Below are positions 4,030 to 47,000 of a stretch of 64,000 nt of DNA, piece by piece. A program made the translations under genes and the position numbers. The stretch's first letter is position 1; each line of letters starts with the position of its first letter. A model generated the notes under the pieces. That model was not told the origin of the DNA, did not search any database, and saw nothing but the letters and a program-made list of their open reading frames with translations. Location: assembly GCA_014925825.1 (NCBI GenBank), contig JACGCK010000148.1, positions 48,186 through 112,185 of the forward strand, in the 5' to 3' direction. The DNA is from Pholiota molesta (taxonomy: Eukaryota; Basidiomycota; Agaricomycetes; Agaricales; Strophariaceae).

Positions 4030-4441
4030 TGTTGAATGTCGACTCCATGGACTCTCTTTCCCTACGTTCTCCTATTTCATCTTACTTACTCCTTTTGTTC
4101 ATAACTCTTCCTATTCCGGATACACGTTCGCTGCCTGGCTATTTCATAAATCCTTTATTTCATATCACCCATTTCATGCTTACTTACAGGAACAAGCACG
4201 TTCGTGCTCGTCCCGTTACCTTCCGTAATACTTATACTATGGACTTCTGCAGCGCATACCTCATCTGTCATTCACCTTGTGTCTGACGTCGAGGTATGCC
4301 TGCTATTTTACCAGTTACCATCTTATATCTTACTGACTACCTTATCATTAGTTTCTGCTTCGCATTTCAGGTAGTCTAGATTATTCCAATACATCTGTCA
4401 TTCACCTTGTGTCTGACGTCGAGTTTCTGCTTCGCATTTCA
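4030..4441 (+). repeat. 5' LTR of copia 1
   Basis: TGTTGAATG...CATTTCA, 412 bp. Internal order: TATA-like TTATACTAT near 4233; segment A1 (4262-4293); an intron-like spacer GTATGC...CATTAG (4294-4351); segment B1 (4352-4369); GGTAG plus spacer; A2 (4392-4423) joined directly to B2 (4424-4441). A2 and B2 repeat A1 and B1 exactly, without the spacer. The TATA-like box lies about 28 bp upstream of A1, so transcription probably begins near A1. Confidence 0.93.
4294..4351 (+). other. Intron-like spacer inside copia 1 LTR
   Basis: 58 nt, begins GTATGC, ends CATTAG, with a branch-point-like CTGAC at about 4333-4337. Its flanks A1 and B1 occur a second time 40 bp downstream fused without it. Length and signals are those of ordinary basidiomycete introns. 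The same unit is present at 10287-10344 in the 3' LTR. Confidence 0.7.
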
Positions 4442-4455
4442 GGTTATGGGCCCCG
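4442..4455 (+). other. Primer-binding site of copia 1
   Basis: GGTTATGGGCCCCG follows the LTR terminal CA without a gap. GGTTATGGGCCC is complementary to the anticodon stem-loop of initiator tRNA-Met (GGGCCCAUAACC), the half-tRNA priming known for Drosophila copia. The same site follows the LTR of copia 2. Confidence 0.75.
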
Positions 4456-10022: not shown

Positions 10023-10434
10023 TGTTGAATGTCGACTCCATGGACTCTCTTTCCCTACGTTCTCCTATTTCATCTTACTTACTCCTTTTGTTCATAACTC
10101 TTCCTATTCCGGATACACGTTCGCTGCCTGGCTATTTCATAAATCCTTTATTTCATATCACCCATTTCATGCTTACTTACAGGAACAAGCACGTTCGTGC
10201 TCGTCCCGTTACCTTCCGTAATACTTATACTATGGACTTCTGCAGCGCATACCTCATCTGTCATTCACCTTGTGTCTGACGTCGAGGTATGCCTGCTATT
10301 TTACCAGTTACCATCTTATATCTTACTGACTACCTTATCATTAGTTTCTGCTTCGCATTTCAGGTAGTCTAGATTATTCCAATACATCTGTCATTCACCT
10401 TGTGTCTGACGTCGAGTTTCTGCTTCGCATTTCA
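10023..10434 (+). repeat. 3' LTR of copia 1
   Basis: Same 412-bp sequence as 4030-4441 by eye, including the A-spacer-B and fused A-B units (A1 10255-10286, spacer 10287-10344, B1 from 10345, A2-B2 10385-10434). It is followed by the second target copy CTTTA and then by STAND NTPase coding sequence. Confidence 0.93.
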
Positions 10435-13688: not shown

Positions 13689-14060
13689 TGCACATCCACC
13701 GCCCTCACACGTCCGCCACCCTCGCACGTACGCCGCCCTTGCACTCCGCCGCCCTCGTGCTCCGCCGCCCTCGCGCGTCCGCCACCATCGTGCTCCACTG
13801 CCCTCGCGCATCCGCCACACTCGTGCTCCACTGCCCTCGCGCGTCCGCCACACTCGTGCTCCACTGCCCTCGCGCGTCCACTGCCCTTGCGCATCCACCG
13901 CCCTTGCGCATCCGCCACCCTCGCGCGTGCGCGCGCCCGTTGTGTATCTCCCCGTTGTCCGCCGCCTCCACCGCCATTGTGCACATCCACCGCCCTCGCG
14001 TGTCTGCCGTCCTCATGCTCCGCCACCCTCATGCTCCGCCGTCATCGCGTGCCTCCGCCG
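13689..14060. repeat. GC-rich minisatellite, about 33-bp unit
   Basis: Tandem, imperfect copies of a unit like GTGCTCCACTGCCCTCGCGC plus GTCCGCCACACTC. The units are multiples of three, so they open long Arg/Pro/His-rich frames on both strands, which I treat as repeat artefacts rather than genes. Confidence 0.75.
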
Positions 14061-14169
14061 TTGTCATCGCCCGTCCATCGGGTGCCGCAGTTGTCACCAT
14101 TTTCGTGAGCCTCCCTTGCCTGCATGCGCCGCAAGTTGTCGCGAGCCCCTGTTGTCTGCCACCCTGTCG

Positions 14170-18199: not shown

Positions 18200-19190
18200 A
18201 CTGGGGGGATCTGGTGCTGGGAGAGAGGGATGGACGAACGAGATGAGAATTGTAGACAGCGACGTAGTGCGCTGGTGGGATCTTATCCAATCATCGAGCG
18301 ATCTGCCTTCCCCGCAGCGCGATAACGCAGAGGTCGTTGCGCCTTATAAGCACGAGCCCGCAGGATAGCGAACCTGTTGTCCGATATAAGTGCGTGATGC
18401 AACGCGGAAAGTGAAATGTTGTGCGCTTACACCTAAGATAGACATTCGTACCACCCTATCATAGCCTATCATCCAGTGTTGTCTCCGGATCCACCAACAA
18501 TCCAGCGAACGCCGACGGAAATTCTGCTGTACCGTTTGGAGACAATTGAACAGCGTTGACCCATTAGGTCGGCCTGTTTGCTATGCTACGACGGTGCGAT
18601 GTCAATAGAAAGCTTCATGTTGAAGCAGCGAGTCAACATGCATCCGGAATCGGGAGGGTTAGAGCTGCGTTCGATGGTGCCCAGATATGGCATCTATGCC
18701 ACAGATCGACACGAACATATTTATGCAGATGACATGAACGAAGTGGGTTGGGGGAGAAAAAATATGGGACTTGGTGCGAAGGGCTTTCCACTCGTTATCG
18801 CCAATAAAGAGACAAGTGTTGAATCAGGAGTGAGCAACGGGCGCTGTAAGATGTGCAATCCCCATGTCAGCGAGAGCGAATGGGATACCAACGTCAAATG
18901 ATATTCATCCAGCGAGCACCAGCACCGGGCTACACGCAAAAGAGGACATCATCGAAAATCAGCTTCTATTTGGCCCACCCCAAGATGCCGTAAACCGCGC
19001 CAGACGAGCAGTAGCGAGCGCTGCAGGTCGTGGGATCCAAAGTACGCCATGGAGGATGTCCTCTTTAGAGTGTGGAACCACACGGGAACTGCATATCATA
19101 CAGGGGTGGCACGGCGGCAGGAGGAAATCGGGCGGACGTGCATATGAGAGAAGGACGCGGTACTCACCTTGGCGAGCACGCATTCGCTAG
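18200..19190 (+). other. Outer module of the left arm, decayed coding-like sequence
   Basis: The plus strand carries coding-like patches: MRIVDSDVVRWWDLIQSSSD at 18244, VGWGRKNMGLGAKGFPLVI at about 18745, and EDIIENQLLFGPPQDAVNRA at about 18939. GT and AG signals occur between them, but I cannot assemble one uninterrupted gene and I do not recognise the family. The mirror copy on the minus strand at 24571-25440 keeps a longer open segment. Related fragments lie at 12.7 kb and 15.8 kb. Confidence 0.3.
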
Positions 19191-20044
19191 TCACTCCCTG
19201 CACTCCCTGGGAGGACTTGCAGCTGGTTCAACTTTTGCTACATAGCTCCTTAGTGGAAGGCAGGCTGTAACAGAATGTCCGATACGCAACGCGGCCCACA
19301 CACGGGTGCAGGATAGCGTCAGAGAATTGCCTAGAGCACGAGCCATTGGAAGACATAAGACCGCTCGTCAGATCGTGAGCCCACAGAGCAAGGTGTCGGT
19401 GGCCGGTGAACTGGAGGATGAACGATGTGAATGGTTGCCTGGTGAGAGAACGGTACAGCGAGCAGCAGGTGGTCTGTGCGTGATTGAAGATACCGGCCCG
19501 TTAATTCCGAGAACTCCGAAGGCTTCAGCCCTTCGTCATGATCACTGTCTTCGCGCTCTTCACCCCCGGCAGCCTCGCAGCCCATGCCGTCTGCTGGTGG
19601 ATGGATACCGTTCTACATGTTATCCGCTTTGCGCTCGTATATCATGTTATGTTATAATCTATGTAGTAGTAGAGACATTTTTTTTTTTTTTTTCAATTCA
19701 TGTTTGCCAAATCTTTGCAATGGAGCAATGAACTATGAGTGCGCGACAATTTCATCAAATCATATGTATTCATGACAGCGTCCGCAGATCCCAATCTTAT
19801 CTGAAGCGGATAATCGCTCCGTGGTGGTGGAAAATCCAGCATGAAGGGCGTGCATCATGCAATTTTCAAGACTCAACAACCGCCCGATGAGCCAGGTACC
19901 GTCCCTGTCTCCCAATGTCGCCTTGAGACGAGACACATCCCTTCAACGCTATCCGATCTGCGGAGTGTCATAGATAGCCAAAGAACCAAGCAACTACACT
20001 CCTCAAGCGCCTACGTTCCACCATACGCACACTCCTCGAACCAA

Positions 20045-21593
20045 TCATCCGCCCCCACATCCGAAAAGCCATTCGTGATCTGCGACCCCATTCAGCCAAC
20101 CCTTCTTCCCGTGAAGCAAAATGGAACGCACCCAATGCAGCAGAATCCCCGCGATGACGTCCGCGGAGGGCGCTGAGACAACCGCGTCGATGTCCGGCCC
20201 GAAGGTGCGGTGCAGCTTGACCACGCCGGAGTCCTTGTACGCCGCGCCCTCGCCGGTGGCGTTGAAGGTGAGCAGGAGGAATATCCATTTGTGCCCGTCG
20301 GTCAGGGCACCGCGGATGACCTTCTTACTGTACAAAAAGTAAAGTGGTGAATAAAGTATAGTATAGAGACAAGGAGGAGAGAACGAAAAATGATACGGAC
20401 CAGAGCCGTCGGCCGCACACGCCAGAGTGGTTATACGCCGCGCCCTCGCCGGTGGCGTTGAAGGTGAGCAGGAGGAATATCCATTTGTGCCCGTCGGTCA
20501 GGGCACCGCGGATGACCTTCTTACTGTACAAAAAGTAAAGTGGTGAATAAAGTATAGTATAGAGACAAGGAGGAGAGAACGAAAAATGATACGGACCAGA
20601 GCCGTCGGCCGCACACGTACAGCTCGCATACGGCGTTGTGGATAGCGGCATTGAGGTCGCCCGGTCGGAGCTTGGCTTCGAGGATGAAGACCACGGATCG
20701 CGCGTGGAACTTGAGCACCTCGTACGTCGGGTTCGTTTGGATAGCGCCTACGCGGGGACGTGAGCAAAGCCGCTCGACAGGACATCCTTTGTCGTTTGGC
20801 GAAGGACGCTGAGCTTACCTGCGCAGTGTTTGTCGACTACCGCCGCGATATATCCAGGGAAGCTCGCTAGACAAAACGGATCGACGGCGGTGCGGCTTGG
20901 AAGCGAGGCAGGGACGGTGAGGGAGATGCGCCTGTCGTCCTGCAGTAGCATTGCGGCTGTTCGGAATAGGAGCGCTTCGATCCACGGGCGCGCGCTGTCG
21001 CCTTCCTATTTAACTAGTGGTCAAAAACGAATCCAGAAAATGCGTAGAGGAAGTGAAGAACGGAACATACCACGGACGCTTCGAATAAGTTCAAGTGGCG
21101 GTATAGATTCGCGGACGACCAGAGCTCGTGCGCGCCGAGTGAGGTGGTCGCCATGGCGCGTTCCAGGAGCCCAGATTTCAGGTCTAGGAAGCCGGAAGAC
21201 ACGATGTTCAGCCGGGTGAGCGCGTCCATGTCGATGGCCGCACCGGGGGCGCGCAGAGACTATACTTCAACGCGTGAGCCGACGCGCATGGAATGCAGGT
21301 TCGTGACGCCAATGACAGCCTACCTGAAATTCATCGAGCTCCAGGTCTACCGCGGATATCATAGCGTCGAGCCCGTGCTCAAAGCCATCCGAAGCTCGGT
21401 CTGCGCCTGCCTCTGTGGCCTCCGTGAGGGTCTTCTGCAGCCTGACGAGACAGTGATGCGCATGACGTAATTCCGACGCTGGTATCCGCTGGTCTTCTCC
21501 GGCGCCGCCTTGGCCCATGGCGCCCTTTAGCCGGAGCAGAGAGTTGTAGGCAAGTTGTAGGTGCACCGCACTGAGGGCGGAGAGCGTAGCCAT
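20045..21593 (-). CDS. Uncharacterised five-exon gene, left copy (with internal duplication)
   Basis: Minus-strand mirror of the gene at 21931-23290: it starts MATLSALSAVHLQLAYNSLL at 21593 and ends ...DHEWLFGCGGG at TGA 20045-20047. All five exon blocks are present, including FILEAKLRPGDLNAAIHN and IRGALTDGHKWIFLLLTFN. Between exon 4 and exon 5 a 184-bp segment covering the intron and adjoining exon ends is duplicated in tandem (20238-20421 and 20434-20617). Splicing from the first donor to the last acceptor would bypass the extra copy and give a similar protein; any other choice breaks it. Substitutions relative to the right copy are scattered. Function is discussed under the right copy. 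Confidence 0.5.
20238..20617. repeat. 184-bp tandem duplication inside the left gene copy
   Basis: Two apparently identical units, 20238-20421 and 20434-20617, are separated by 12 bp (CCAGAGTGGTTA-like junction). Each unit starts within exon 5, spans the final intron and stops in the 3' end of exon 4. The right arm has only one unit. The duplication is therefore specific to the left arm and younger than the inverted duplication. Confidence 0.85.
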
Positions 21594-21930
21594 TCGAATT
21601 TGGAGGAATGAAAGGGCGGATGAAACAAGTTCGACATTGCGAACGCTGAGTTTGAAAAGATGCTTCCACTATGTCTCTTCGGGTACTCAGCTTGGCCTCC
21701 CCAAAAGTCCTGCAGCTGGTTTGACTTTCGATAGCTCCTTGGCGTCGTTCTTGGAAGGTAGCGGAAGCGCGATATGCAACGCGGCCACGGTTGCAGGTTA
21801 CCGTCTGAATCAGAGCGAGCACGAGAATTGCTTAGAGCACGAGACAATGGAAGAAGCAGCTTTTCTTTTCAAACTCAGGTTTCGCAATGTCGAACTTGTT
21901 TCATCCGCCCTTTCATTCCTCCAAATTCGA

Positions 21931-23290
21931 ATGGCTACGCTCTCCGCCCTAAGTGCGGTGCACCTACAACTCGCCTACAACTCTCTGCTCCGGCTGAAGA
22001 GCGCCATGGGGCAACGCGACTCCGGAGAAGACCAGCGGATACCAGCGTCAGAACTACGTCATGCGCATCACTGTCTCGTTAGGCTGCAGAAGACCCTCAC
22101 GGAGGCCACAGAGGCAGGCGCAGACCGGGCTTCAGATGGCTTTGGGCACGGGCTCGACGCTATGATATCCGCGGTGGAGCTGGAGCTCGATGAATTTCAG
22201 GTACGATGGCTGTCACTGGCGTCACGAACCTGCATTCCATGCGCGTCTGCTCACGCGTTGAAGTATAGTCTCTGCGCGCCCCCGGTGCGGCCATCGACAT
22301 GGACGCGCTCACCCGGCTGAACATCGCGTCTTCCGGCTTCCTACAGCTGAAGTCTGGGCTCCTGGAACGCGCCGTGGCGACCGCTTCCCTCGGCGCGCAC
22401 GAGCTCTGGTCGTCCGCGAATCTGTATCGCCACTTGAACTCATTCGAAGCGTCCGTGGTATGTTCCGTTCTTCACTTCCTCTACGCATTTTCTGGATTCG
22501 TTTTTGACCACTAGTTAAATAGGAAGGCGACAGCGCGCGCCAGTGGATCGAAGCGCTCCTATTCCGAGCAGCCGCAATGCTCCTACAGGACGACAGGCAC
22601 ATGTGCCTCACCGTCCCAGCCTCGCTTCCAAGCCGCACCGCCGTCGATCCGTTTTGTCTAGCGAGCTTCCCTGGATATATCGCGGCGGTAGTCGACAAAC
22701 ACTGCGCAGGTAAGCTCAGCGTCCTTCGCCAAACGACAAAGGATGTCCTGTCGAGCGGCTTTGCTCATGTCCCCGCGTAGGCGCTATCCAAACGAACCCG
22801 ACATACGAGGTGCTCAAGCTCTACGCACGCTCCGCGGTCTTCATCCTCGAAGCCAAACTCCGGCCGGGGGACCTGAACGCCGCTATCCACAACGCCGTAT
22901 GCGAGCTGTACGTGTGCGGCAGACGGCTCTGGTCCGTATCATTTCTCTTTCCCTCCTCCTGGTATCTACTCTCCATACTTTATTCACACCTTTATTTCTT
23001 TATTCAGTAAGAAGGTCATCCGCGGCGCCCTGACCGACGGGCACAAATGGATATTCCTCCTGCTCACATTCAACGCCACTGGCGAGGGCGCGGCGTACAA
23101 GGACTCCGGCGTGGTCAAGCTGCACCGCACCTTCGGGCCGGACATCGACGCGGTTGTCTCAGCGCCCTCCGCGGACGTCATCGCGGGGATTCTGCTGCAT
23201 TGGGTGCATTCCATTTTGCTTCACGGGAAGAAGGGTTGGCTGAATGGGGTCGCAGATCACGAATGGCTTTTCGGATGTGGGGGCGGATGA
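21931..23290 (+). CDS. Uncharacterised five-exon gene, right copy, 359 aa; possible PD-(D/E)XK-like fold
   Basis: Exons 21931-22200, 22269-22457, 22523-22709, 22781-22931 and 23008-23290 join in frame to 1080 nt ending in TGA. Every intron is GT...AG and 65-76 nt long. The N-terminal half is helical (MATLSALSAVHLQLAYNSLL; LRHAHHCLVRLQKTLTEATE). Exon 4 and exon 5 give YEVLKLYARSAVFILEAKLR, PGDLNAAIHNAVCELYVC, then IRGALTDGHKWIFLLLTFN. A strand with E-x-K, a helix, then a G-x-LTDG-x-W-x-F strand resembles restriction-endonuclease-like PD-(D/E)XK domains; this is inference from pattern alone. No signal peptide or membrane segment is seen. A mirrored paralogue starts 338 bp away on the other strand, so the two would be divergently transcribed from one spacer. 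Confidence 0.6.
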
Positions 23291-24570
23291 TTGGTTCGAG
23301 GAGTGTGCGTATGGTGGAACGTAGGCGCTTGAGGAGTGTAGTTGCTTGGTTCTTTGGCTATCTATGACACTCCGCAAATCGAATTAGCGTCGGAGGAATG
23401 TGTCTCAAGGCGGCATTCCGCTCGCGACAGGTGTGTTCCTGGTTTTCCTGGTTCGTCGGGCGGTGGTTGGGTCTTGAAAATTGCAGGATACACGCCGTTC
23501 AAGCTGGATTCTCACCACCACGGAGCGATTATCCCTTCAGATAAGATTGTGATCTGCGAACGCTATCATGAATAGACAGACAAAATTGACTGCTATGCCT
23601 TCAGACATACATTGTATATTACAATATTGACCTTGATCCATTGAAAGATACGATGATATAAGAATAGGAAGTCGGGGTAGACCAAAATAAAAATAAAAAT
23701 AATACTGTTGTGCAGGTGCTGCTCTCGCAATCGCAAAACATATATGTAAGCGCTAGAATCAGGAGAGTCTGCCACCTCACGCCGGTCCTACTATACGCCC
23801 TGGTAAAAACGGCTTTATGTCAAATTTCAAGGCTGGAGGTACTTCTATCTTATATGAGCTCGCAATGGATTTATGTCTCTACTACTACATAAATTATAAA
23901 CAACACGATCTACGAGCGCGAACACGTAGAATGGTACCCATCCACCAGCAGACGGAATGGGCTGCGGGGGCGAAGAGCGCGAAGACAGTGATGAAGGGCT
24001 GAAGCGTTCGGATTTCTTGGAATTAACGGGCCGGTATCTTCGATCACGCACAGACCACCTGCTGCTCGCGACACGGTACACCAGGCAACCCATTCCTATC
24101 GTTCATCCTCTAGTTCACCGGCCACCGACACCTTGCTCTGTGCGCTCACGATATTACTAGCGGTCTTGTCTCTTCCATGGGCTCGTGTGCTAGGCAGTTC
24201 TCGTGATCGCTCTGACGCTATCCTGCACCCGTGCGTGGACCGCGTTGCGTATCGGACCTTCTGCTCCAGCCTGCCTTCCAAGCACGACAACAAGGAGCTA
24301 TTAGCAAAAGTTACAGCTGCAAGTCTTCCAGGGAGTGCAGGGAGTGACTAGTGACTAGTGAATGCGTGGTCGTCAAGCTGAGTACCGCGTCCTTCTCTCA
24401 TACGCACGTCCGCCCGATTCCCTCCTGCTGCCGTGCTCCCTTGTATGATATGCAGTTCCTGTGCGGTTCCACATTATAAAGAGGGCACGGTCCATGGCGT
24501 ACTTTGGATCCCGCGACCAGGAATGTGTAGCGCCCTCTGCTGCTCGTCCGCCTCGTCCTGCGCTGCGTGA

Positions 24571-25440
24571 CTACGCCGCCCGGGGTTCTGACGATGTAGT
24601 CGGCATCTTGGGGTGGGCCAAATAAGTGCTGAAATTGAACGACGGTGTCCTCTTTTGCGTGTAGCCCGGTGCTGGCGCTCGCTGGATCGATACCATTCTA
24701 CGCTGTAATTTCATTCGCGCTCGCTGACATGGGGGATTGGACAGCTTACCGCGCCCGTTGCTCATGCTTGTACGCCGAAGATGTGAACTGCTTTGCCATA
24801 TCAGTTAGTACTTGCGTCGGCTTGGCGCTTGAAATCTCCTGTTCCACGAGCCTGATCTGTTCTTTGGTGATGACGAGCGGAAAGCCTTTCGCACCAAGTC
24901 CCATATTTCTTCTTCCCCAACTCATGTGGTCTGCATAAGTAGGTTCGTGTCGATCCTGAGTACAGATCGCATATCTGGGGGTCATCGAACGCAGATTGGG
25001 CCTTCCCGATTCCGGACGCGTGTTGGCTCATTGCTTCAAGGTGGAGCTTTCTATTGACATTGCACCGTCGTATCATAGCAAACAGGCCGACGTAATGGCT
25101 CAACACACGTCTTCAAACCGGACAGCAGGATTTTTGTCGACGTGGGCTGGGCTGTCGGTGGATCCGTATCGGCGGCGGGGACAACGCTGGACGATAGGGC
25201 GGTATGGATATCTATCTCACGTGTGAGAGCGCGACGTTTCACTTGTCGCTTTGCATCGCCAACTAATATCAGACAGTACATATGTAGATTCGCTATCCTT
25301 CGCGGCTCGTGCTTATAAGGCGGAACGACCTCTGCGTTATCGCTGTGCGGGGAAGGCAGATCGCTCGATAATGGGATAAGATCCCACCGGCGCACTACGT
25401 GGCCTTCTGCTGTTCTCATCTCGTTCGTCCTCGGTACCAG
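24571..25440 (-). other. Outer module of the right arm, coding-like, unclassified
   Basis: Mirror of 18200-19190. The minus strand reads MRTAEGHVVRRWDLIPLSSD from 25419 and, after a likely intron and a frame change, SWGRRNMGLGAKGFPLVITK plus EQIRLVEQEISSAKPTQVLT from about 24920. The second stretch looks like genuine coding sequence with a helical, charged segment. Start, end and exon joins cannot be fixed, and I do not recognise the family. The open segment after GFPLVI is longer than in the left arm. Confidence 0.3.
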
Positions 25441-25780
25441 ATCCCATACGATTTGTTTACTTTATGTTTCCCAGTGCATCGAACAACGATGTGAATATCT
25501 AGTCTCGCATACACGCATAACGGCTAATACACGCCAGCCCGCTGTCCGAGCACGTCGGAGCGAATATATAGAGCAATCGACAATACGCAACTCGTGGGAC
25601 TCATTTATCAAATTAGCGACACTACGGCACAAAATTGTTGGACGGAGGACTCGCTAGTCGAGGACTCGATTATCAAAAGGCACTTGTGCACCACACGGTA
25701 AGCGCATTCCAGCGCTTACCATAAAAGGACTCTTGTTGTCCGTTGTTTCTTTCTATCACTCCCGAACCTTATTTCGCTCG

Positions 25781-25786
25781 TATAAA
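25781..25786 (+). promoter_or_regulatory. TATA box in copia 2 LTR
   Basis: TATAAA preceded by CGCTCG in the 5' LTR. Predicted transcription start is 25-32 bp downstream, at or just before segment A1. The identical site in the 3' LTR is at 34372-34377. Confidence 0.55.
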
Positions 25787-25840
25787 ATCTGACATACACA
25801 AAACGAGCTCCCTCAGTCGAATATTAATTCGTTGACTGAG

Positions 25841-25899
25841 GTGAGCTCAACATAAAATTTACTTTACACTTTCTATTTTACTTACACCTATTCTCGTAG
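25841..25899 (+). other. Intron-like spacer inside copia 2 LTR
   Basis: 59 nt with donor GTGAGC, acceptor TCGTAG and a CTTAC branch-like motif about 20 nt before the end. Its flanks A1 (ending GACTGAG) and B1 (starting CTATCTTC) recur fused without it 33 bp downstream. The same unit is present at 34432-34490. Confidence 0.7.
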
Positions 25900-25978
25900 C
25901 TATCTTCGTTGTCTAACAGGTAGCTACGTACGCAGTCGAATATTAATTCGTTGACTGAGCTATCTTCGTTGTCTAACA

Positions 25979-25992
25979 GGTTATGGGCCCCG
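25979..25992 (+). other. Primer-binding site of copia 2
   Basis: GGTTATGGGCCCCG directly after the LTR end, identical to the copia 1 site although the LTRs are unrelated. It is complementary to the initiator tRNA-Met anticodon stem-loop. Confidence 0.75.
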
Positions 25993-26169: not shown

Positions 26170-27039
26170 ATGTCTTCCAGCGCAGCACCGTTTATCCTTC
26201 CTGCCGACGAGCAATACGACGGCTCGAACTGGTATACGTTCAAGGAGCGCATTTGTGCCGTTGCCGAACAGCGCGGCACTCTCGACTACCTCAATGGGAA
26301 AATTGCATGCCCTAGCCCGCCAGCCGCAGAGACACCTGCGCCGGCACCCACGACGTACTGGGGCGACGACAAGCCATCCTATAACGAATGGCGTCAGCGC
26401 AACAACTGGACGAAAGGTCTGATCACCTTGAATGTCAAGAACGCTGTCGGTTTAGGTGTTAAAACCGACGGTACGGCGGCGGAGGCTTACAGCTCAATCG
26501 CGAAGGTTCAGGATGCACAAACTGATCTGGGGAGGATGACAGCCGAGAAGGAACTCAGCCAAATCAGATACGCCAACGGCTCGAAGATGGAAGATCACAT
26601 CACCAAACTTCGGACTGCCTGGACCAAGGCCAATAATCAGGGCTGCGAGATCAAGGACCCCCGCTTCCGGATGATAATCCTTGACTCTCTTCCAGACGAC
26701 TGGATGATCTTCGTGTCGACGCTCCGTACCGAGACCACATCTGCAGGCGTCATCGCTTGCCTGATCGCTCACGCGACTATGTTAGCCGCGCGGGCGCCTG
26801 TGAACAACTCGACATCAGCGCAGGCGATGGCCGCACAGGGACGTCACAATCACTCCAAGTCAGATGAAGTCTGCTCGAACCCGATCTGTGGTCGCCGTGG
26901 CCATACGATCGAACATTGCTTCAAGCAGGGAGGAGGTATGGCAGGGCAATACCCAGAGTGGTGGAAGAAGAAGGGAGGGAGTGCGGGAGGGAGCGGCAAG
27001 AATTCTGGGGGATCGACACCCGCCTCCAGCGGGACCAGC
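26170..27039 (+). CDS. Copia 2 Gag part, interrupted after the zinc knuckle
   Basis: ATG at 26170 follows a run of T and C. The protein begins MSSSAAPFILPADEQYDGSN, a copia gag start (compare copia 1 PPILPDGQKFDGTN). Capsid helices follow, then zinc knuckle CSNPICGRRGHTIEHC (about residues 236-251) and a Gly/Ser-rich linker ending SSGTS, where the foldback element enters after GGGACCAGC. The open frame continues only four more codons into the insertion. Gag would package the element RNA in cytoplasmic particles. Confidence 0.88.
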
Positions 27040-30000
27040 CTTGTCTGTTAATATTCTACATGAAGATGTGGCAATTCCCCGGATAAAAATATTGCATCCA
27101 GAGTGCTAACTGCCCACCTCACCTAGCTGACTTTGAAAAATTTCCGCCCTAAGCCAGTGGTCTATGATGGTCAGTAGACGTGTTACTGCTGCTCACTGTG
27201 CTCCAGTGCTCGACACCATGATCAACGGTGTCGAGCAGTGCTCGGCACTGTTTTCAGGGTCGTCCCAAAAAGGAATCCATCAAACTTTTTCCACAAGAAG
27301 AATGACAAATTTGTAAGCTTTTCCCCCCATCATTTGTCAGCACCTCAGCATCTATCATTAGATTTGACCCATTTTGGGACTTTCTGCTCATTGGCCCATC
27401 AAATATGCCATCAAGGACCAAACACATGACCTGGTACCTAACCACATGACCACACATGACTGCAAATGAGGCAGGGACCCTCCCAGGGGTGGGAAATACC
27501 TAAAATAGCATTTTCCCAATATTATTGGAAATGCACCTGGGTAGCTGGTGCACCCTATATGGGACCCACTGGGACCATATTATACCGAAAGATGCGGAAT
27601 TAAATTCTAAAACCACCTGTGAAAGATTCATATGGATAGCTTTATTGGTTCAGGCCCTAGAAGCGAATTACTATTTGGGTGAAATAAGCGCACACATTGA
27701 TGGCTGCTTTCCTCCGCAACCGCTGGGTCGTTTTCTATAATCAAAGCAGATGTCTGTAGGTATTTAAAGCGCGCTTCTAACGCGTTCTTGATCATAATTT
27801 TCCGTCCCTTCTTCGCTCCGTAAAACGCTCCGGATATATTTACGCTCGCACCACATTAGCGCCGGCTATGCTTCCACTATTCGCGCGCATATTATATCAT
27901 AAAATAGGTTGATAAAACACCTTTCCAACTGTACCCTACTCGTCATGATTGAACAACTCTCCGAGGCCCTATAAAGGAAATGGTTGTTTGTAAATAGAAT
28001 ATTAACCACGGATCGCGCCGGAACGCGCGTAGGCTCGTTGGATTCTCCTGAATTTACCGGATTTAATGACACTTTGATTGTAGGAATCTGTGGCCGGGAA
28101 GGCACTGAACTGGACATGGGGATGGCCTGGATATTGCTTTGCTGGCCGGAAGATGCTATTTTTAGCGCTGCCGAGCACGGCCTCACCCAATCCGGGCATG
28201 GATTGGTGGCACTCTCCCCCTCCCCCTCATATTGGAAATTCAGTTCCTCCCTCAATTCCTATCAAAGTGCTTCGTTCTTTTTTCTAATATTCAATATAGA
28301 TATGGTACTATGCGTCTATAACATCTACACAGCACTATAATACATGCAGCATTTGTTATTTTGATATCTCTGTATTTTGGAGACTGCATTTGGGGTTTTC
28401 ACTGTATTTATGATGCTTATTGGCACATATAGAGTGGTGAAAAGCTAGAGGTGAGTACCTACTACACTTCCTGGTAGTTTAGAAGCTACCTGAATACTGT
28501 CCTATAGCTCCATACCCATAAATAGAGACATTACTGTATATCCTCTTGATAAATCCATATCTCAGCCAATACTGTAGCTATAACCACGTTCAAGCATCCA
28601 TTAGAGTATCAGACATGTCTTCTTTTGTTCTGCCACTCAACAATTCTCTTCTCAATGCATTTTATTGGCCATATGACAAGAATGGTTAAATATAGCAGAA
28701 ATAGTGGTATTCTGCCTATAGCAATTCACATAACCATTCTAAAATTCTGTAGAGCTGGGATATTATAGCTCTCATCAATATCTACGATTAGAGATAGGCC
28801 GGAAAGAATTAGAGTGAGTGAGTGGAAAGATATGGTGGAATTAGTACTCAAAACATTGGACTAGGTCAAGGCTATCTATGTTACTTATCATAGACATGTT
28901 TAAATCATGTTTCAGTAGAATGTTTCCACCATATCTTTCCACTCACTCACTCTAATTCTTTCCGGCCTATCTCTAATCGTAGATATTGATGAGAGCTATA
29001 ATATCCCAGCTCTACAGAATTTTAGAATGGTTATGTGAATTGCTATAGGCAGAATACCACTATTTCTGCTATATTTAACCATTCTTGTCATATGGCCAAT
29101 AAAATGCATTGAGAAGAGAATTGTTGAGTGGCAGAACAAAAGAAGACATGTCTGATACTCTAATGGATGCTTGAACGTGGTTATAGCTACAGTATTGGCT
29201 GAGATATGGATTTATCAAAGAGGATATACAGTAATGTCTCTATTTATGGGTATGGAGCTATAGGACAGTATTCAGGTAGCTTCTAAACTACCAGGAAGTG
29301 TAGTAGGTACTCACCTCTAGCTTTTCACCACTCTATATGTGCCAATAAGCATCATAAATACAGTGAAAACCCCAAATGCAGTCTCCAAAATACAGAGATA
29401 TCAAAATAACAAATGCTGCATGTATTATAGTGCTGTGTAGATGTTATAGACGCATAGTACCATATCTATATTGAATATTAGAAAAAAGAACGAAGCACTT
29501 TGATAGGAATTGAGGGAGGAACTGAATTTCCAATATGAGGGGGAGGGGGAGAGTGCCACCAATCCATGCCCGGATTGGGTGAGGCCGTGCTCGGCAGCGC
29601 TAAAAATAGCATCTTCCGGCCAGCAAAGCAATATCCAGGCCATCCCCATGTCCAGTTCAGTGCCTTCCCGGCCACAGATTCCTACAATCAAAGTGTCATT
29701 AAATCCGGTAAATTCAGGAGAATCCAACGAGCCTACGCGCGTTCCGGCGCGATCCGTGGTTAATATTCTATTTACAAACAACCATTTCCTTTATAGGGCC
29801 TCGGAGAGTTGTTCAATCATGACGAGTAGGGTACAGTTGGAAAGGTGTTTTATCAACCTATTTTATGATATAATATGCGCGCGAATTCGCTTCTAGGGCC
29901 TGAACCAATAAAGCTATCCATATGAATCTTTCACAGGTGGTTTTAGAATTTAATTCCGCATCTTTCGGTATAATATGGTCCCAGTGGGTCCCATATAGGG

Positions 30001-30520
30001 TGCACCAGCTACCCAGGTGCATTTCCAATAATATTGGGAAAATGCTATTTTAGGTATTTCCCACCCCTGGGAGGGTCCCTGCCTCATTTGCAGTCATGTG
30101 TGGTCATGTGGTTAGGTACCAGGTCATGTGTTTGGTCCTTGATGGCATATTTGATGGGCCAATGAGCAGAAAGTCCCAAAATGGGTCAAATCTAATGATA
30201 GATGCTGAGGTGCTGACAAATGATGGGGGGAAAAGCTTACAAATTTGTCATTCTTCTTTTGGAAAAAGTTTGATGGATTCCTTTTTGGGACGACCCTGAA
30301 AACAGTGCCGAGCACTGCTCGACACCGTTGATCATGGTGTCGAGCACTGGAGCACAGTGAGCAGCAGTAACACGTCTACTGACCATCATAGACCACTGGC
30401 TTAGGGCGGAAATTTTTCAAAGTCAGCTAGGTGAGGTGGGCAGTTAGCACTCTGGATGCAATATTTTTATCCGGGGAACTGCCATATGTTTCATGCATGA
30501 GACTAGCAGACACTGGTGGC
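27040..30520. mobile_element. Foldback element, near-perfect palindrome, MULE-like
   Basis: Left arm about 27040-28840 and right arm 28924-30520 are reverse complements, with an 83-bp spacer (28841-28923). Target duplication is GGGACCAGC (27031-27039) and GGGACGAGC (30521-30529), 9 bp with one mismatch and in the same codon phase of the copia frame. Very long inverted repeats plus a 9-bp duplication suggest a Mutator-like origin. No transposase is present; mirrored frames such as the 118-aa one at 27984-28340 and 29425-29781 are palindrome artefacts. The right arm lacks about 208 bp present in the left (27672-27887). Confidence 0.85.
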
Positions 30521-33500
30521 GGGACGAGCACGCCGACGACCAACATCGCCGCTAGCGCCATAGCAGCACCCAGCGCTAACCTCGCATTTGCTGCATCCAC
30601 TGAGGAATACTCCGATGGGCACGTCATCACATACGCTGATTCTGCGGCGAGTGGCTACTTCTTCGTCCAGCGCGAGGACTTCGACGACTACGAACCTCGT
30701 ATGGAGAGTGGCGAGACAGCAGATGGCGGCGAATTCTTCATCGCAGGAACGGGAACAGTCACCAAGCACGCCCTCTATGACGGCCACATTACGCGCATCA
30801 CCTTCCACAATGCCCAGCACACACCAAACCTACGTCACAACCTCGTTTCGATCGGCCGTCTCGATCAGAAGGGGTACCGGGTTGTATTTGGTGATGGGCG
30901 CGCGACCTTCCTCAACACAGATGGCACACCGTTCATGGAGTCAGAGAGCCTGGGCACAGGCTCGATGTATCGTCTCATCTGGGTGACTAGCCCACCCGCC
31001 GACCCAAACACTGCATTCTCGGCGAGATCACTCACTAAACCAGTCGATCTCGCGACCTGGCATAGACGCCTAGGCCACATCTCGGAGGACAAGATCGCCG
31101 TGGCCGTACGCGAGAACTTGACGACGGGTATCAGCATCAAGCCGGGGAAGGCGCCGGGGAAATGTGAAGACTGCATATTGGGGAAGCAGTCAAGTCGCCC
31201 GTTCGACTTGGTCATTGAGCGTGAGGTGGAAGTCCTCGAGCGCGTGTACATCGATCTGATGGGGCCGATGGTCGAGACGCCAGGGAAGAGGAAGTACATG
31301 ATGGTCGCTGTCGACGGATCCTCTGGTAACACAGAATCCTTCTATCTCCCCAATAAGGAGATGGAAACCACCCTGGAGGCGTTCGATACCTATCGGTTGC
31401 GTGCCGTGAACCTCACTGGGAAGCGGCTTCTGCGAGTTCGGACGGACAATGGGCTGGAATTCAAGAACAGGCTGTGGGAGGACTACTGTAGGCAACATGG
31501 GATCATCCACGAGTTCACTGCCCCTTACACTTCAGCATCCAACGGCGTCGCAGAACGAGCCAACAGAACCATCGCCGACCTGACGCGTGCTATGCTGCAG
31601 GACGCTCGACTACCCGCGAAGTACTGGGCCGAAGCTGCCAGCACTGCGACCTACATCCGCAACATGCTCCCCACCCGTCATGACCCCCATAGCACCCCCT
31701 TCGAACGCTGGAATGGCAGGAAGCCAGATGTCTCGCATGTACGCCCCTTCGGATGCATCGCCTATGCCAAGATTCCCGACGCAGTCAGTGATGGGAAGTT
31801 AGCCGCACGATCAATCAAATGCGTGCTAGTGGGCTATTCTGGGACGGGCGTCTATCGTGTGCTGGAAAGGTCGACGGGTCGAGTGTCGGTGACGAGGAAT
31901 GTGGTCTTTGAGGAGGGGACAGGACACAGGACGACGGATAGGGAGGAAGGGCTGGAGGAAATGGACACGAGGTTCATCCTGGGTGACAAAGCACAGGTAA
32001 TGGATGCCACGCCTGTCGGATCGCGGGAAGACGACGAAGTCGAAGACCTACCTGCAACCACTTCTGATGCGCCCGCCAACCCACAGGCTCCTCCGCAGCA
32101 TGACGCTGACGCGGCTCCCAACTTACCTCCTACCAACAACAATGCACCTGCACGCCGACCACGAGTCGCTTACCCTCCCGCGTCTCAGTCATCGAGTCGC
32201 CTTGCGGGCGACGTGGCTCCACCATTCGACCCGGATCAACCTCTCGCAATGGTCGCGCATGGCACCGATGACCTGTGGGTTCCCCAGAGCTATGAGGAAG
32301 CGTGTATGAGGAAGGACTTGTGGTGGGAGCCAATGGTGGCAGAGATGGGAATGATGAGGGAGATGGGAGTATGGAAGCTGGTGGAGAGACCGCCAGGCGC
32401 GAGGGTGATGAAATTGGGATGGACGTACGCGGCAAAGGTTGATGCGGATGGAGAGCTGGAGAAGCGCAAGGCGCGCTTTGTCGCAAAAGGCTATTCACAG
32501 ATCCCAGGCGTCGACTTCTGGGAAAGCCGCGCCGCCGTCGTTCGATATGAATCGCTTCGTATCGCCCTTGTCGTGGGCATGGTGCACGACTTGGAGATCT
32601 GGCAGTCAGACTACAGCAGTGCATATCTGAACTCACCGACACAAGTTCCACTTCTCATCGAGCAACCGCAGGGCTTCGAGGTATTCGACCTGGGCGGCTA
32701 CACCGCCGACGGCATATTCCAGGTCCCCAATCCTGATGGTCCAGTTTACGAGGTCATCGGGTATGTCCCCGCCGGAGGAGCTGTTCACGAGGTCGTCGAC
32801 ACACCCGATTACCGCGTCGATGGACCTGTCCTTGATAAACTCCCCCTCGTTGATGCCCCGCTGAAGCACATTATCCTGGAGGAGAAGGAGGTGGTAAGGG
32901 AGCGTGTGACGATGGAGGACCTTGGGAAGGAGGAGGTTAGCGAGGAAGAGCGGTTGAGGCTAGACGCGAGGAAGGAACTGGACCTTGGATTGGACAACCC
33001 AGAGTGGGACGCGAAGGAGAGGCGGAAGCGAGCGAGCAAAATCGTCTGCGTCCTGGAGAAGAGCCTTTACGGTACGGTCGACGGCGCACACAACTGGGCA
33101 AAAACCCTCGACGGGTCGATGAAGCGACTTGGGTATTACCGCTCGCGAGCCGACCAGTGCGTTAGAATTCGCTCGATTGACGGCAACACCACCATTACTT
33201 GCACATACACTGACGACATCACTGGGATGAGCACATCCGTCGACGAGCGAGAGAAGGCAATCCGCGAACTGGGCTCGGAGTTCAAGCTGAAAGATCTTGG
33301 GGATCTCAAGCACGTCATTGGACTGGGCGTCAATCGACTCCGCGACGGCAGATACATGGAAGTCTCTCAGGCGGCCGCGATAATCAGAGCAGTCGAGTGG
33401 TTCGGACTCCAGAATTCCACCCCAAAGTACACTCCTCTGCCTCCGGGCATTCAACTCACAGCAGCCGACTCTCCTTCGACGGACGCCGACCGCGTGTTCA

Positions 33501-34213
33501 TGGTCGACAAGCCTTATCGCGAGATGCTTGGGACCGCGCTATACTTCCAAGGTGCGAGTCGCCCCGATCTGGGATACTCAACAGCAACTCTCTCTCGCTT
33601 CGCAAACAATCCCGGACCAGCTCACTGGCGCGCTCTCGTCCACCTCTTTCAGTACCTGAAGACGACGGCTCACTTCAAACTTCGTTACGGAGGACCAGGA
33701 TACAGCGACACAACACCTATGGGGTACGTGGACTCAGACTATGCCGCCGACCCAGATAAGCGCCGATCCATTTCGGGCTACGTCTTCACCCAAGCTGGCG
33801 GACCGACCACATGGTCTGCAAAGTACCAACCCACCGTCGCACTATCGACCGCTGAAGCAGAATACATGGCGCTCAGCCGGGCCGCCCAGCAAGCCGAGTG
33901 GATGTATTCGTCGCTCGGCGAGATAGGTATCTCGCCACCGAGACCAGCCAATCTTCGCGGAGACAACCAGGCCGCGATTCGCATCGCCAGCAACCAGACC
34001 GGATCAGCAAAGGTCAAACACATCGACGTACACGAACACTATGTCCGGGAGAAGGTCGACGGAGGACTGATCAACTTGGACTGGATCGAGAGCAGTATGA
34101 ACATCGCCGACATGCTCACGAAACCTCTCAACCGGATCGCGCACTGGAAACACTGTGTCGCGCTTCGCCTCTGCGAGCCGGACGACCCCCTCATCATCCG
34201 ATCCACGAACTAG
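30521..34213 (+). CDS. Copia 2 Pol part (protease, integrase, RT, RNase H)
   Basis: Resumes in phase as GTSTPTTNIAASAIAAP. Protease motif is YADSAASGYF, with Ala where copia proteases usually have Gly (D-S/T-G). GAG-pre-integrase has WHRRLGH and CEDC. Integrase: VYIDLMGPM, RTDNGLEF, NGVAERANRTI. RT: QSDYSSAYLNS and YTDD (about 33211). Between the PQGFEV segment and the SLYG segment there is an extra charged stretch of about 118 residues (32684-33037) absent from copia 1. RNase H: YVDSDYAADPDKR, STAEAEYMAL, RGDNQAAI. Ends at TAG 34211-34213, just upstream of the 3' LTR. Confidence 0.88.
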   Translation, partial: GTSTPTTNIAASAIAAPSANLAFAASTEEYSDGHVITYADSAASGYFFVQREDFDDYEPRMESGETADGGEFFIAGTGTVTKHALYDGHITRITFHNAQHTPNLRHNLVSIGRLDQKGYRVVFGDGRATFLNTDGTPFMESESLGTGSMYRLIWVTSPPADPNTAFSARSLTKPVDLATWHRRLGHISEDKIAVAVRENLTTGISIKPGKAPGKCEDCILGKQSSRPFDLVIEREVEVLERVYIDLMGPMVETPGKRKYMMVAVDGSSGNTESFYLPNKEMETTLEAFDTYRLRAVNLTGKRLLRVRTDNGLEFKNRLWEDYCRQHGIIHEFTAPYTSASNGVAERANRTIADLTRAMLQDARLPAKYWAEAASTATYIRNMLPTRHDPHSTPFERWNGRKPDVSHVRPFGCIAYAKIPDAVSDGKLAARSIKCVLVGYSGTGVYRVLERSTGRVSVTRNVVFEEGTGHRTTDREEGLEEMDTRFILGDKAQVMDATPVGSREDDEVEDLPATTSDAPANPQAPPQHDADAAPNLPPTNNNAPARRPRVAYPPASQSSSRLAGDVAPPFDPDQPLAMVAHGTDDLWVPQSYEEACMRKDLWWEPMVAEMGMMREMGVWKLVERPPGARVMKLGWTYAAKVDADGELEKRKARFVAKGYSQIPGVDFWESRAAVVRYESLRIALVVGMVHDLEIWQSDYSSAYLNSPTQVPLLIEQPQGFEVFDLGGYTADGIFQVPNPDGPVYEVIGYVPAGGAVHEVVDTPDYRVDGPVLDKLPLVDAPLKHIILEEKEVVRERVTMEDLGKEEVSEEERLRLDARKELDLGLDNPEWDAKERRKRASKIVCVLEKSLYGTVDGAHNWAKTLDGSMKRLGYYRSRADQCVRIRSIDGNTTITCTYTDDITGMSTSVDEREKAIRELGSEFKLKDLGDLKHVIGLGVNRLRDGRYMEVSQAAAIIRAVEWFGLQNSTPKYTPLPPGIQLTAADSPSTDADRVFMVDKPYREMLGTALYFQGASRPDLGYSTATLSRFANNPGPAHWRALVHLFQYLKTTAHFKLRYGGPGYSDTTPMGYVDSDYAADPDKRRSISGYVFTQAGGPTTWSAKYQPTVALSTAEAEYMALSRAAQQAEWMYSSLGEIGISPPRPANLRGDNQAAIRIASNQTGSAKVKHIDVHEHYVREKVDGGLINLDWIESSMNIADMLTKPLNRIAHWKHCVALRLCEPDDPLIIRSTN

Positions 34214-34226
34214 CAAGTCGGAGGAC

Positions 34227-34569
34227 TGTTGGACGGAGGACTCGCTAGTCGAGGACTCGATTATCAAAAGGCACTTGTGCGCCACACGGTAAGCGCATTC
34301 CAGCGCTTACCATAAAAGGACTCTTGTTGTCCGTTGTTTCTTTCTATCACTCCCGAACCTTATTTCGCTCGTATAAAATCTGACATACACAAAACGAGCT
34401 CCCTCAGTCGAATATTAATTCGTTGACTGAGGTGAGCTCAACATAAAATTTACTTTACACTTTCTATTTTACTTACACCTATTCTCGTAGCTATCTTCGT
34501 TGTCTAACAGGTAGCTACGTACGCAGTCGAATATTAATTCGTTGACTGAGCTATCTTCGTTGTCTAACA
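34227..34569 (+). repeat. 3' LTR of copia 2
   Basis: 343 bp, same architecture as the 5' LTR at offset +8591 (TATA 34372, A1 34405-34431, spacer 34432-34490, A2-B2 34524-34569). A purine-rich GTCGGAGGAC precedes it and AAAAT follows. Confidence 0.93.
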
Positions 34570-34625
34570 AAAATACCTTCGAGCATGTCCCTACGGCTTC
34601 GAGCATGTCGCCGCAGGGACATGGA

Positions 34626-44074: not shown

Positions 44075-47000
44075 CCACTTGTGTCTGTCAATCTCATGCA
44101 TGAACCAGACTAGATTGACGAAACATAAATGTTGCATCCAGCTTCCTAACTAACATGCACAGCCACTCCACCAAGCTGAGTTTAAAGACATTCCACTTTT
44201 GGCAGGTGGTCTTTGCTGGTCACTGGGGGTGGTGATGGTGATCACTGGAGGCTGTGCACTTGCTCACCATGCTCAACAGTGCCCCGCACTCGTCGTCGCT
44301 GTTGTCAGGGTCATCCCAAAGTGGAAATGCCAAAAATAACATTTTTCCACTATTGGTGGGATTGCAGCTGGGCAGCTGGTCCGCTCTGTTTGGGGCCCTT
44401 TGGGACAATTTTAAATCGATAGATGCGGATTTTGATTCTGAATACAACCGTAAAATTCTCATATTAATAGCTGCAATGGTTGACGCGCTAGACGCGAATT
44501 ACTGATGGCGTAAAATTAGCGCCCACAAAGAATATTGCTTTCCTCCGCAACCGCCCAGTCGTTTTGCATGATCTTAGGTGGTATCTAGAGATGTTAAACG
44601 TGCGCTTCGAACGCGTCCATGATCGTAATTTTACGTCCGTTCCTCGCTCCGTAAAACGCTCCGGATATATTTACGCTCGCACCGCTTTCCCGCCAGCTAC
44701 GCGTTGAATATCCGCGCGCATATTATATTGTAAAATAGGTTAATACTACACCTTTCCAATGGTACCATACTCGTTTGTATTGGAACATTCTACGCGGCGT
44801 TATTCACGAAATGGTTGTTTATTTATAGCAGGGGAACCACAAATCGCCTCAGCGAGCGCTTAGGTGCGTTGCCATCTGCTAAATTTATTGGATTTAATGG
44901 CACATCGACTTTGGGGATCAGACGCCGGGAAGGTACTGAAGCAGATGCTGGGCTGGCATGGATATTGGCTGGCTGGCAGGCATGATTCTATATTTAGTAT
45001 TCGGGCCGAGCACGTGTCTGTTGGCTGCATGCCCGGTATATGCACCTGGGTTGGCTCGCTCAATATTGGGCGCTTAGGCGCCATAATATACAGAAAGATT
45101 CAGAATTTTACACTGATTTTGAATCTAAAATTTTCATATTAATAGCTGCATTCGTTAGGGCGCTAGAAGCGAATTACTGATGGCGCTTAAAATGCGCCCA
45201 CAAAAGATGGCTTGTTTCTCATGAACCGGCGCTCCGTTTTGCATAATCTAAATTGGAGTGTATAGATATTAAAAAGATCTTTCCAACGCGATACTGATCG
45301 TAATTTCCCGTTCGTTCCCTGGCACATAAAATGGCCCGCACTATTCTGCACTCCAGCATTAATAGCATGGGCTAGGCATTGAATATAAATACGCTACATT
45401 CCCATAAAATAGCTGAATACAAGGTCTTTCGAACGCGTGTCTATACACCGTTATTGAGTAACATCCCATAGCTCCAGAAAAGAATTGATCATGCATTAAA
45501 TGGCGCAGGGACCGCATACCGCGCCGGCGCGTACTTAGGCGCGTTGAAATCGCCTGATTTTACTGGATTTAATGACGCCTTTATCATGGAATTCGGAGAC
45601 CGGGAAGGTAGTGAACCAGACATGGGGTGGGTATGGATATTGCCTTCCTGGCCGGAATGGTACTATTTTTAGGCCTGCCGTGCTCGGCATCACCCAATTC
45701 GGGTGCAGAATAGTGGCACCCTCCCCCTCCCCCCCATATTAGAAATTCGATTCCTCCCTCAATTCTTATCCAATCCTTTTGTTCTTTTTTGTATTATTTT
45801 ATATAAATACGGTACTATACGCCTACGCCATTGATACATTATTGTACTGCATGCAGCATGTGTTATCTTAATATCGCGCTTTTTTCAGTATTATATTGGG
45901 GCTTTTCACTGCATTTGGGATGCTTATTAGCATATATAAAGCGGTGAGTAGGTAGAGGTACATATCTAACACATTTTCTGGTAGCTTAGCACCAAAATAA
46001 ATGCTGACCTATAGGGTTACACACATGAAAGTTGGATTGGGGTACTTTCTCCTTGATGTACTCATATCTCAACCAATACCATAGCTACAAGTAAGTTCAA
46101 GGACACATTAGCATATTAACCATGCTGCCTCTAACTCTATTAATCGACGATTGTTCTCCAAATGCATTGTGTCAGCTATATCAGCAGAATGATTAAATCT
46201 AGCAGAAAACAGGAAATATACATCTGGCACATTCAATTATGCTTGGAATATTGTGATATTCGGAGTGAGTATATTACCATATCTACTACCTAGCATATCC
46301 AAAAGTTAGACAAGGAGAGTAAGAACTGCACCCTACAGAGCCAAATATGTCGCGACCTACCCACATATTTTTGATGTATGACTTGATTCATAGATATCCC
46401 TATGATCTAAACACCTCAAGTGGTCTAGAATATGCTCTGATGAATAACTTTTTTTATAAATGCCTATATTAAGTGAGATTGGTGTCAAGTAGCTATGATA
46501 AGCATATTACAATATATTTGGAGTAGTAACAGTATATAGATATGTATGAATCTACTGACATTTTCAAGAAATCGAAGAATTTTGCGATGTTTTGGTATCT
46601 AGAGGTCGCAATTCTTTTACTTGTCTTTCGAATTTTGGCAAGGTAATTCTATCTATACTATAGAGTACTCCTTGAAAATCGTGTAATTTTAGACGCATAA
46701 CTACATTCACAGGGCGATATTGTTCTGTATTTATCGTATTTAATCATTTGGTGTGATCACTGGAGTAATTGGTGTGTGTCAGAATATTGTATGGTAAATA
46801 TTTGATAGGCCTGTTACCTTTTTAACGCACTCATGTTTCTGTCTGTAGTGACAATATTGGCTGAGATATGGGTACATAAAGGAGAAAGTACCCCAATCCA
46901 ATGTTCATGTGTGTAACCTATAGGTCAGCATTTATATTGATGCTAAGCTACCAGAAAATGTGTTAGATATGTACCTCTACCTACTCACGCTTTATATATG

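Follow-up and report, generated by a model that had tools for sequence, protein, structure and literature searches.

Candidate introns and a ready-spliced exon copy recur in the LTRs of copia retrotransposons of Pholiota molesta

The R region of the long terminal repeat (LTR) in many copia retrotransposons of Pholiota molesta appears to carry two spliceosomal introns, the second of which would contain a ready-spliced copy of the exons, A2·B2. This two-intron layout, A1-GT(50-65 nt)AG-B1-x-A2B2, was found in 39 of 92 surveyed regions upstream of the copia-type primer-binding site (PBS), falling into 20 sequence clusters, and a one-intron form was found in 35 (30 GC-AG and 5 GT-AG). As far as the sequences can tell, the structure is real and recurrent, and renewal of the copy through spliced RNA explains it most simply. 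Two spliced introns together with strong-stop transfer onto A2·B2 are probably the best explanation of these data.

The element copia 2 lies on the forward strand of the window, the whole stretch of 64,000 nucleotides that was analysed, as do the other copia features given below. Its LTR pair, with the boundaries TGTTGG..TAACA, occupies 25636..25978 (5′ LTR) and 34227..34569 (3′ LTR), shows a single mismatch between the two copies, at 25690, and is flanked by the target-site duplication AAAAT (25631-25635 and 34570-34574). The PBS, GGTTATGGGCCCCG (25979..25992), is complementary to the anticodon arm of the genome's tRNA-Met(CAT), and GCGGGGCCCATAACCCCG is present in the tRNA-Met(CAT) genes of the same genome, so the PBS matches a host tRNA. 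The gag gene (Retrotran_gag_2, PF14223) is located at 26170..27051, and pol, with the integrase core before RVT_2 in the copia order, at 30431..34213 (PF00665 at residues 271-367 and PF07727 at residues 647-751). Copia 2 thus combines gag, the integrase/RVT_2 order, TG..CA LTRs, a short target-site duplication and a tRNA-matching PBS, as expected of Ty1/copia. Eight relatives of its gag were found, and the two with a named source come from Psilocybe cf. subviscida (48-49% identity), which fits an agaric host. Between gag and pol there is a near-perfect long palindrome (27063-30490) with arms of about 1.6-1.8 kb, 83 nt apart, and CATG close to both ends. Two further long palindromes in the window, 18232-25430 and 44250-48671, are stepwise inverted repeats with arms 82-98% alike, and at 13696-14084 units of the CCGCCCTCGCGC type form an array, spaced 16-17 and 33 nt apart.

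Within the 5′ LTR of copia 2, a TATAAA box (25781..25786) precedes A1 (25814..25840) by 33 to 28 nt. A1 is the putative exon 1, bounded by the presumed transcription start and 5′ splice site 1. Predicted intron 1 (25841..25899; GTGAGC..CGTAG, 59 nt) contains a branch-like CTTAC and is followed by B1 (25900-25918), which with one further G forms exon 2 (25900..25919), ending CAG|GTA. Predicted intron 2 (25920..25979; GTAGCT..AACAG, 60 nt) holds most of the spacer x, the intron-free copy of exon 1, A2 (25933..25959), and, fused to it, the intron-free copy of exon 2, B2 (25960..25978), which ends the LTR; its acceptor AG takes in the first base of the PBS. A1 and A2 are identical at 27/27 positions and B1 equals B2, the identity extending into GGT. 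Rechecking of the sequence reproduced all coordinates of A1, B1, A2, B2, the spacer and the TATAAA box given by the first-pass annotation, which had described the GT..AG spacer between A1 and B1 and had overlooked the second intron. The GGTAG after B1 is, by its signals, the second 5′ splice site (CAG|GTA), with the end of B2 as the matching acceptor.

The 3′ LTR of copia 2 has the same layout, and so do both LTRs of a second element, copia 1, in agreement with the earlier description. The 5′ LTR of copia 1 (4030..4441) comprises A1 (4262-4293), intron 1 (4294-4351), B1 (4352-4369) and intron 2 (4371-4442), in which A2 (4392-4423) and B2 (4424-4441) are located; the 3′ LTR (10023..10434) is identical to it, and the target-site duplication is CTTTA. 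The two elements had been called unrelated. Their reverse transcriptases (RTs) are 46% identical and belong to one well-supported clade, and since copia 1 and copia 2 are relatives, the layout that they share does not establish independent origin. In an RT tree of 14 fragments, each about 150 residues long, the two-intron, one-intron and intron-free groups were scattered across deep copia lineages of the genome, and RT identity to copia 2 was mostly 33-50% across the members. Several deep branches were poorly supported (0.55-0.66), so that a single origin with losses and several origins are both possible.

For the survey, all exact occurrences of CAGGTTATGGGCCC across the assembly of 65.6 Mb were collected, giving 81 sites with 79 distinct upstream sequences and none for the reversed control. 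A one-mismatch search added 36 sites (8 for the reversed control pattern), of which 19 were examined and 13 kept as LTR/PBS junctions; L094, L096, L098, L101, L110 and L111 were dropped, showing no LTR context by eye. The resulting 92 upstreams represent the copia-type PBS only, and exon-copy layouts were called by automatic search. An exon copy was present in 74/92 upstreams, and neither layout was called in 18/92. By eye, L018, L034, L037, L049 and L068 form one intron-free group and L057 and L075 another. L019 has A1, intron 1, B and the PBS with the copy absent, L087 and L051 are LTRs of family F1 without the intron and with an indel, respectively, L099 is a decayed copia 2 type, and L016, L028, L038, L056, L066, L088b and L095 are deleted, rearranged or diverged. 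F1, the commonest copia-PBS family (30 loci between L009 and L102), has a GC-AG intron, CTCCAG|GCAAGT, with an exon copy. The intron-free F1 arrangement has four genome matches (0-3 mismatches), one of them exact and part of L087. Intron-free F1 LTRs fit precise intron loss and A1/A2 recombination equally and are therefore not counted as proof; the same holds for L019.

Neither layout occurred in 1840 dinucleotide shuffles of the 92 upstreams. Among 1063 flanking windows there were 12 two-block calls and 33 one-block calls, 1/33 with both splice signals. Without the score cut, the 18 two-block flanking candidates listed lay, by eye, in ACCACTGGT-like repeat arrays, and none of these 18 had all four splice signals. 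A chance origin of the layout was rejected on the basis of the shuffles and the flanking windows. Palindromic ACCACTGGT-like repeat arrays were also noted near L011, L050, L064, L071, L077, L085 and L087. A PBS-string scan of prokaryote and virus collections gave no such layout; 85 strings had at least 200 bases upstream, with 1 weak repeat. An LTR survey of this kind had been proposed in the first-pass annotation. Within this genome the pattern extended well beyond two elements, and LTRs with other tandem repeats lacking GT/AG boundaries did not make up the majority. The recurrence supports the suggestion of a mechanistic cause acting through a spliced leader; the independent origin suggested with it is not established by two related elements, and the strand transfer is addressed below as a proposal.

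Splice signals were consistent across the survey. GT and AG were present at both introns in 39/39 two-intron loci, with junctions set within the positions that the repeat allows (1-6 at the A/B junction and at most 6 at the B end) and, where needed, with the first G of the PBS completing the AG acceptor of B2. Predicted lengths were 50-65 nt for intron 1 and 50-73 nt for intron 2, which are typical of fungal introns. Further evidence on the second intron comes from 11/39 loci in which a segment C of 7-36 nt, absent after B1, lies between B2 and the PBS. In these loci the repeat ends at ..AG, and B1 is followed by GTA in 11/11 and B2 by GT in 3/11. Because C-bearing repeats end at AG before C, the right end of the repeat corresponds to a splice acceptor rather than to the LTR end, and a repeat defined by the LTR end was rejected. 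The donor of L039 is shifted downstream by two bases (GAGGT|GTAAGT), and precisely the same two are present in A2·B2. The one-intron form consists of A1, an intron containing A2, then C and the PBS, and it follows the same rule as the two-intron form: all exons that precede the last intron are found in copy at that intron's end.

The branch motif CTNAY was found near the acceptor of intron 1 in 20/20 families (9.8 in shuffled sequences) and, without enrichment, of intron 2 in 10/20 (7.5 shuffled), while the looser YTNAY motif distinguished neither intron from shuffles. Intron 1 is therefore the stronger of the two, which suits a reading in which only A1|B1 is spliced, GGTA is no splice site and A2·B2 serves as a landing pad through template slippage; the near-perfect direct repeat A·B-x-A·B that singly spliced RNA would contain also fits. 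Against this stand the GT after B1 in 39/39 loci (GTA in 19/20 family representatives) and the C-bearing loci, where the repeat stops at AG before C. Moreover, with single splicing each round would tend to add a further x-A·B, and in the 39 loci x does not exceed 26 nt, too short to contain one. Splicing of a single intron therefore seems unlikely.

The comparison of copies points to their continual renewal. Among the 20 cluster representatives, A was 63% and B 57% identical on average. Within elements, A1 equalled A2 exactly in 33/39 loci and B1 equalled B2 exactly in 35/39. The 11 mismatches between copies in the 39 loci were 10 CpG-type transitions and 1 boundary effect; L078 also has a 1-nt indel in a run of C between its A copies, which is not of CpG type, and its A appears shortened. 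In L013, the 3′ LTR (L113) keeps both copy pairs identical. Within clusters, 200 pairwise differences were alike in both copies and 5 occurred in one only, these being pair counts among equal-length copies and not independent events. In the one-intron form the last 22 nt were identical in 23/35, and the other 12 differed mostly at CpG, some elsewhere.

Several origins of such copies were weighed. Plain tandem duplications in DNA, with splice signals gained later and copies kept alike by gene conversion, have in their favour that duplication of AGGT is a described route to new introns, as far as the available text of PMC4974935 goes, and that AG|GT-like borders occur at both copies in L012 and in C-free loci. 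DNA duplication, however, does not account for the joining of A2 to B2 at borders compatible with GT/AG in 39/39 loci, and DNA conversion is not expected to preserve the A2/B2 junction while both halves co-evolve, which makes such an origin highly improbable. Splicing of A1 straight to B2 at the GAG end of A2 was also considered. It would use a poor splice acceptor, as GAG is, and would not homogenise B.

Removal of both introns would give A·B·(C·)PBS, which equals the LTR terminus plus PBS in 30/39 loci, and would shorten the predicted leader from 144-200 nt to 38-83 nt. In three intron-free LTRs the TATA box lies 72-76 nt upstream of the PBS. Transcription starts near 30 nt after the TATA box, and with a start at about this distance the intron-free leaders would measure roughly 41-46 nt, near the spliced-leader lengths.

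On the preferred reading of two spliced introns, the following mechanism is proposed. Transcription would begin at A1, about 31 nt past the TATA box, and the 5′ leader would lose both introns. Half of the tRNA-Met that matches the PBS would then prime minus-strand strong-stop DNA complementary to A·B·(C), and this DNA would anneal to A2·B2, close to the RNA's 3′ terminus, and be extended through x, B1, intron 1, A1 and U3. Such extension would regenerate a full LTR with both introns, and because every round of this kind would make A2 anew from A1 and B2 anew from B1, it would explain the observed concerted evolution. We infer that two splicing events and a transfer onto A2·B2 can account for every part of the anatomy. 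The stronger version, in which the genomic RNA is obligatorily spliced, each LTR stores the processed leader as a landing site and a hairpin blocks splicing only in the 3′ LTR, has in our estimate an even chance of being correct; under it, the stored leader copy and the 3′ block would make the introns heritable through a spliced RNA intermediate.

As a counterpoint, unspliced RNA could in principle regenerate the LTR too. Splicing might then serve only mRNA export or translation, as 5′ UTR introns often help expression, with the genomic RNA mostly unspliced and A2·B2 renewed by rare spliced RNA. The regeneration of an unspliced R agrees with this, and the data leave the frequency of the spliced route free. 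Yet the copies in the 39 loci differ only by the CpG-type changes, the boundary effect and the L078 indel given above, and the exon copy is kept in most upstreams although intron-free forms exist. We therefore regard a role confined to export or translation as rather improbable.

The proposed transfer places demands on both ends of the RNA. At the 5′ end, a TATA-like box was found 29-35 nt before A1 in 14/20 families, at 43 nt in one more (L078, with its shortened A), and before A2 in 2/20, by a loose pattern run without a shuffle control; with this spacing to the left edge of the A1/A2 identity, A2 seems to begin where the RNA would begin. At the 3′ end, the introns of the LTR would have to remain in the RNA. 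For intron 2, the ending of the repeat at the LTR border may suffice where the PBS must supply the acceptor's G, a base absent after the 3′ LTRs of copia 1 and copia 2; in copia 2 the base A follows the 3′ LTR, and hence the acceptor AG is absent there.

For intron 1, a hairpin between U3 and the 5′ splice site may keep the 3′ LTR unspliced. The stretch of U3 directly before A1 can pair with the end of the exon and 5′ splice site 1, through arms such as GCACACCTC/GAGGTGTGC, GCATACCTC/GAGGTATGC and GAGCTCCCTC/GAGGTGAGCTC. In copia 2 the U3 arm GAGCTCCCTC (25805..25814) lies mostly upstream of the presumed transcription start, and the right arm, GAG|GTGAGCTC (25838..25848), spans 5′ splice site 1. 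Missing from the 5′ leader, the U3 arm could thus mask the donor in the 3′ LTR. The arms covary: across 20 families, pairing of own arms gave -12.8 kcal/mol vs -9.7 kcal/mol for permuted arms (0/20000), and the intron part alone -5.6 vs -3.4 (0/20000). Four one-intron representatives have a similar inverted repeat. Folding of 24 representatives in longer context gave a mean unpaired donor of 0.25 in the leader, 0.14 in the 3′ LTR and 0.23 with a shuffled arm. There was no clearly free donor in the 5′ leader in these folds, and L012, L032, L058, L059 and L109 went the opposite way. Intron-free L018 and L034, when folded, also showed an inverted repeat near the presumed start site, so the start-site hairpin may predate any role in splice-site masking. 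Given this repeat and the folds in longer context, masking of the 3′ LTR donor is put forward as a proposal.

A retroelement that passes through spliced RNA would be expected to lose its introns. In many families of this genome they seem to be retained because the LTR holds its own processed leader and rewrites it, which raises the question of why they are kept given the intron-free forms. The layout is a signature, visible in sequence alone, of coupling between splicing and reverse transcription, and it is searchable in any fungal genome; it also allows transcription starts and splice sites to be predicted without RNA.

The elements share with Ty1/copia the gag, the integrase before RT, TG..CA LTRs, a 5-bp target-site duplication and a PBS matching the anticodon arm of tRNA-Met. 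Members of Ty1/copia (Pseudoviridae) use half of the initiator tRNA as primer, as in Drosophila copia, and we know of no description of the group with R-borne LTR introns or an intron-free exon copy. Among the literature matches listed, mainly non-subscription papers, there was no report of LTR introns with an intron-free exon copy. Retroviruses such as spumaviruses and deltaretroviruses have, like copia 2, a splice donor in the R region of their 5′ LTR. They splice to acceptors located 3′ of the LTR, whereas those predicted here, one at B1 and one where B2 ends, are within the LTR or on its border; to our knowledge, their spliced RNAs never serve as genome and no intron-free exon copy accompanies them. 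The single-transfer lentiviral vector LTR1, in the available part of its description (PMC5542766), is similar in its altered strand-transfer layout and optional leader intron; unlike the copia elements here, it is engineered and its first transfer is removed. The AGGT tandem duplications likewise make an intron of a duplicated exon segment, but they are described as single DNA events (PMC4974935), whereas the copia exon copy appears to be repeatedly rewritten. RNA of LTR elements is also spliced in Ogre, EVADE, BARE1 (PMC12786077) and Cer1 (PMC3315495), as predicted here. In the accessible parts of these accounts, splicing yields subgenomic or gag mRNAs and the full-length RNA is the genome; the elements described here, in contrast, have their introns within the LTR and appear to use the spliced leader as template.
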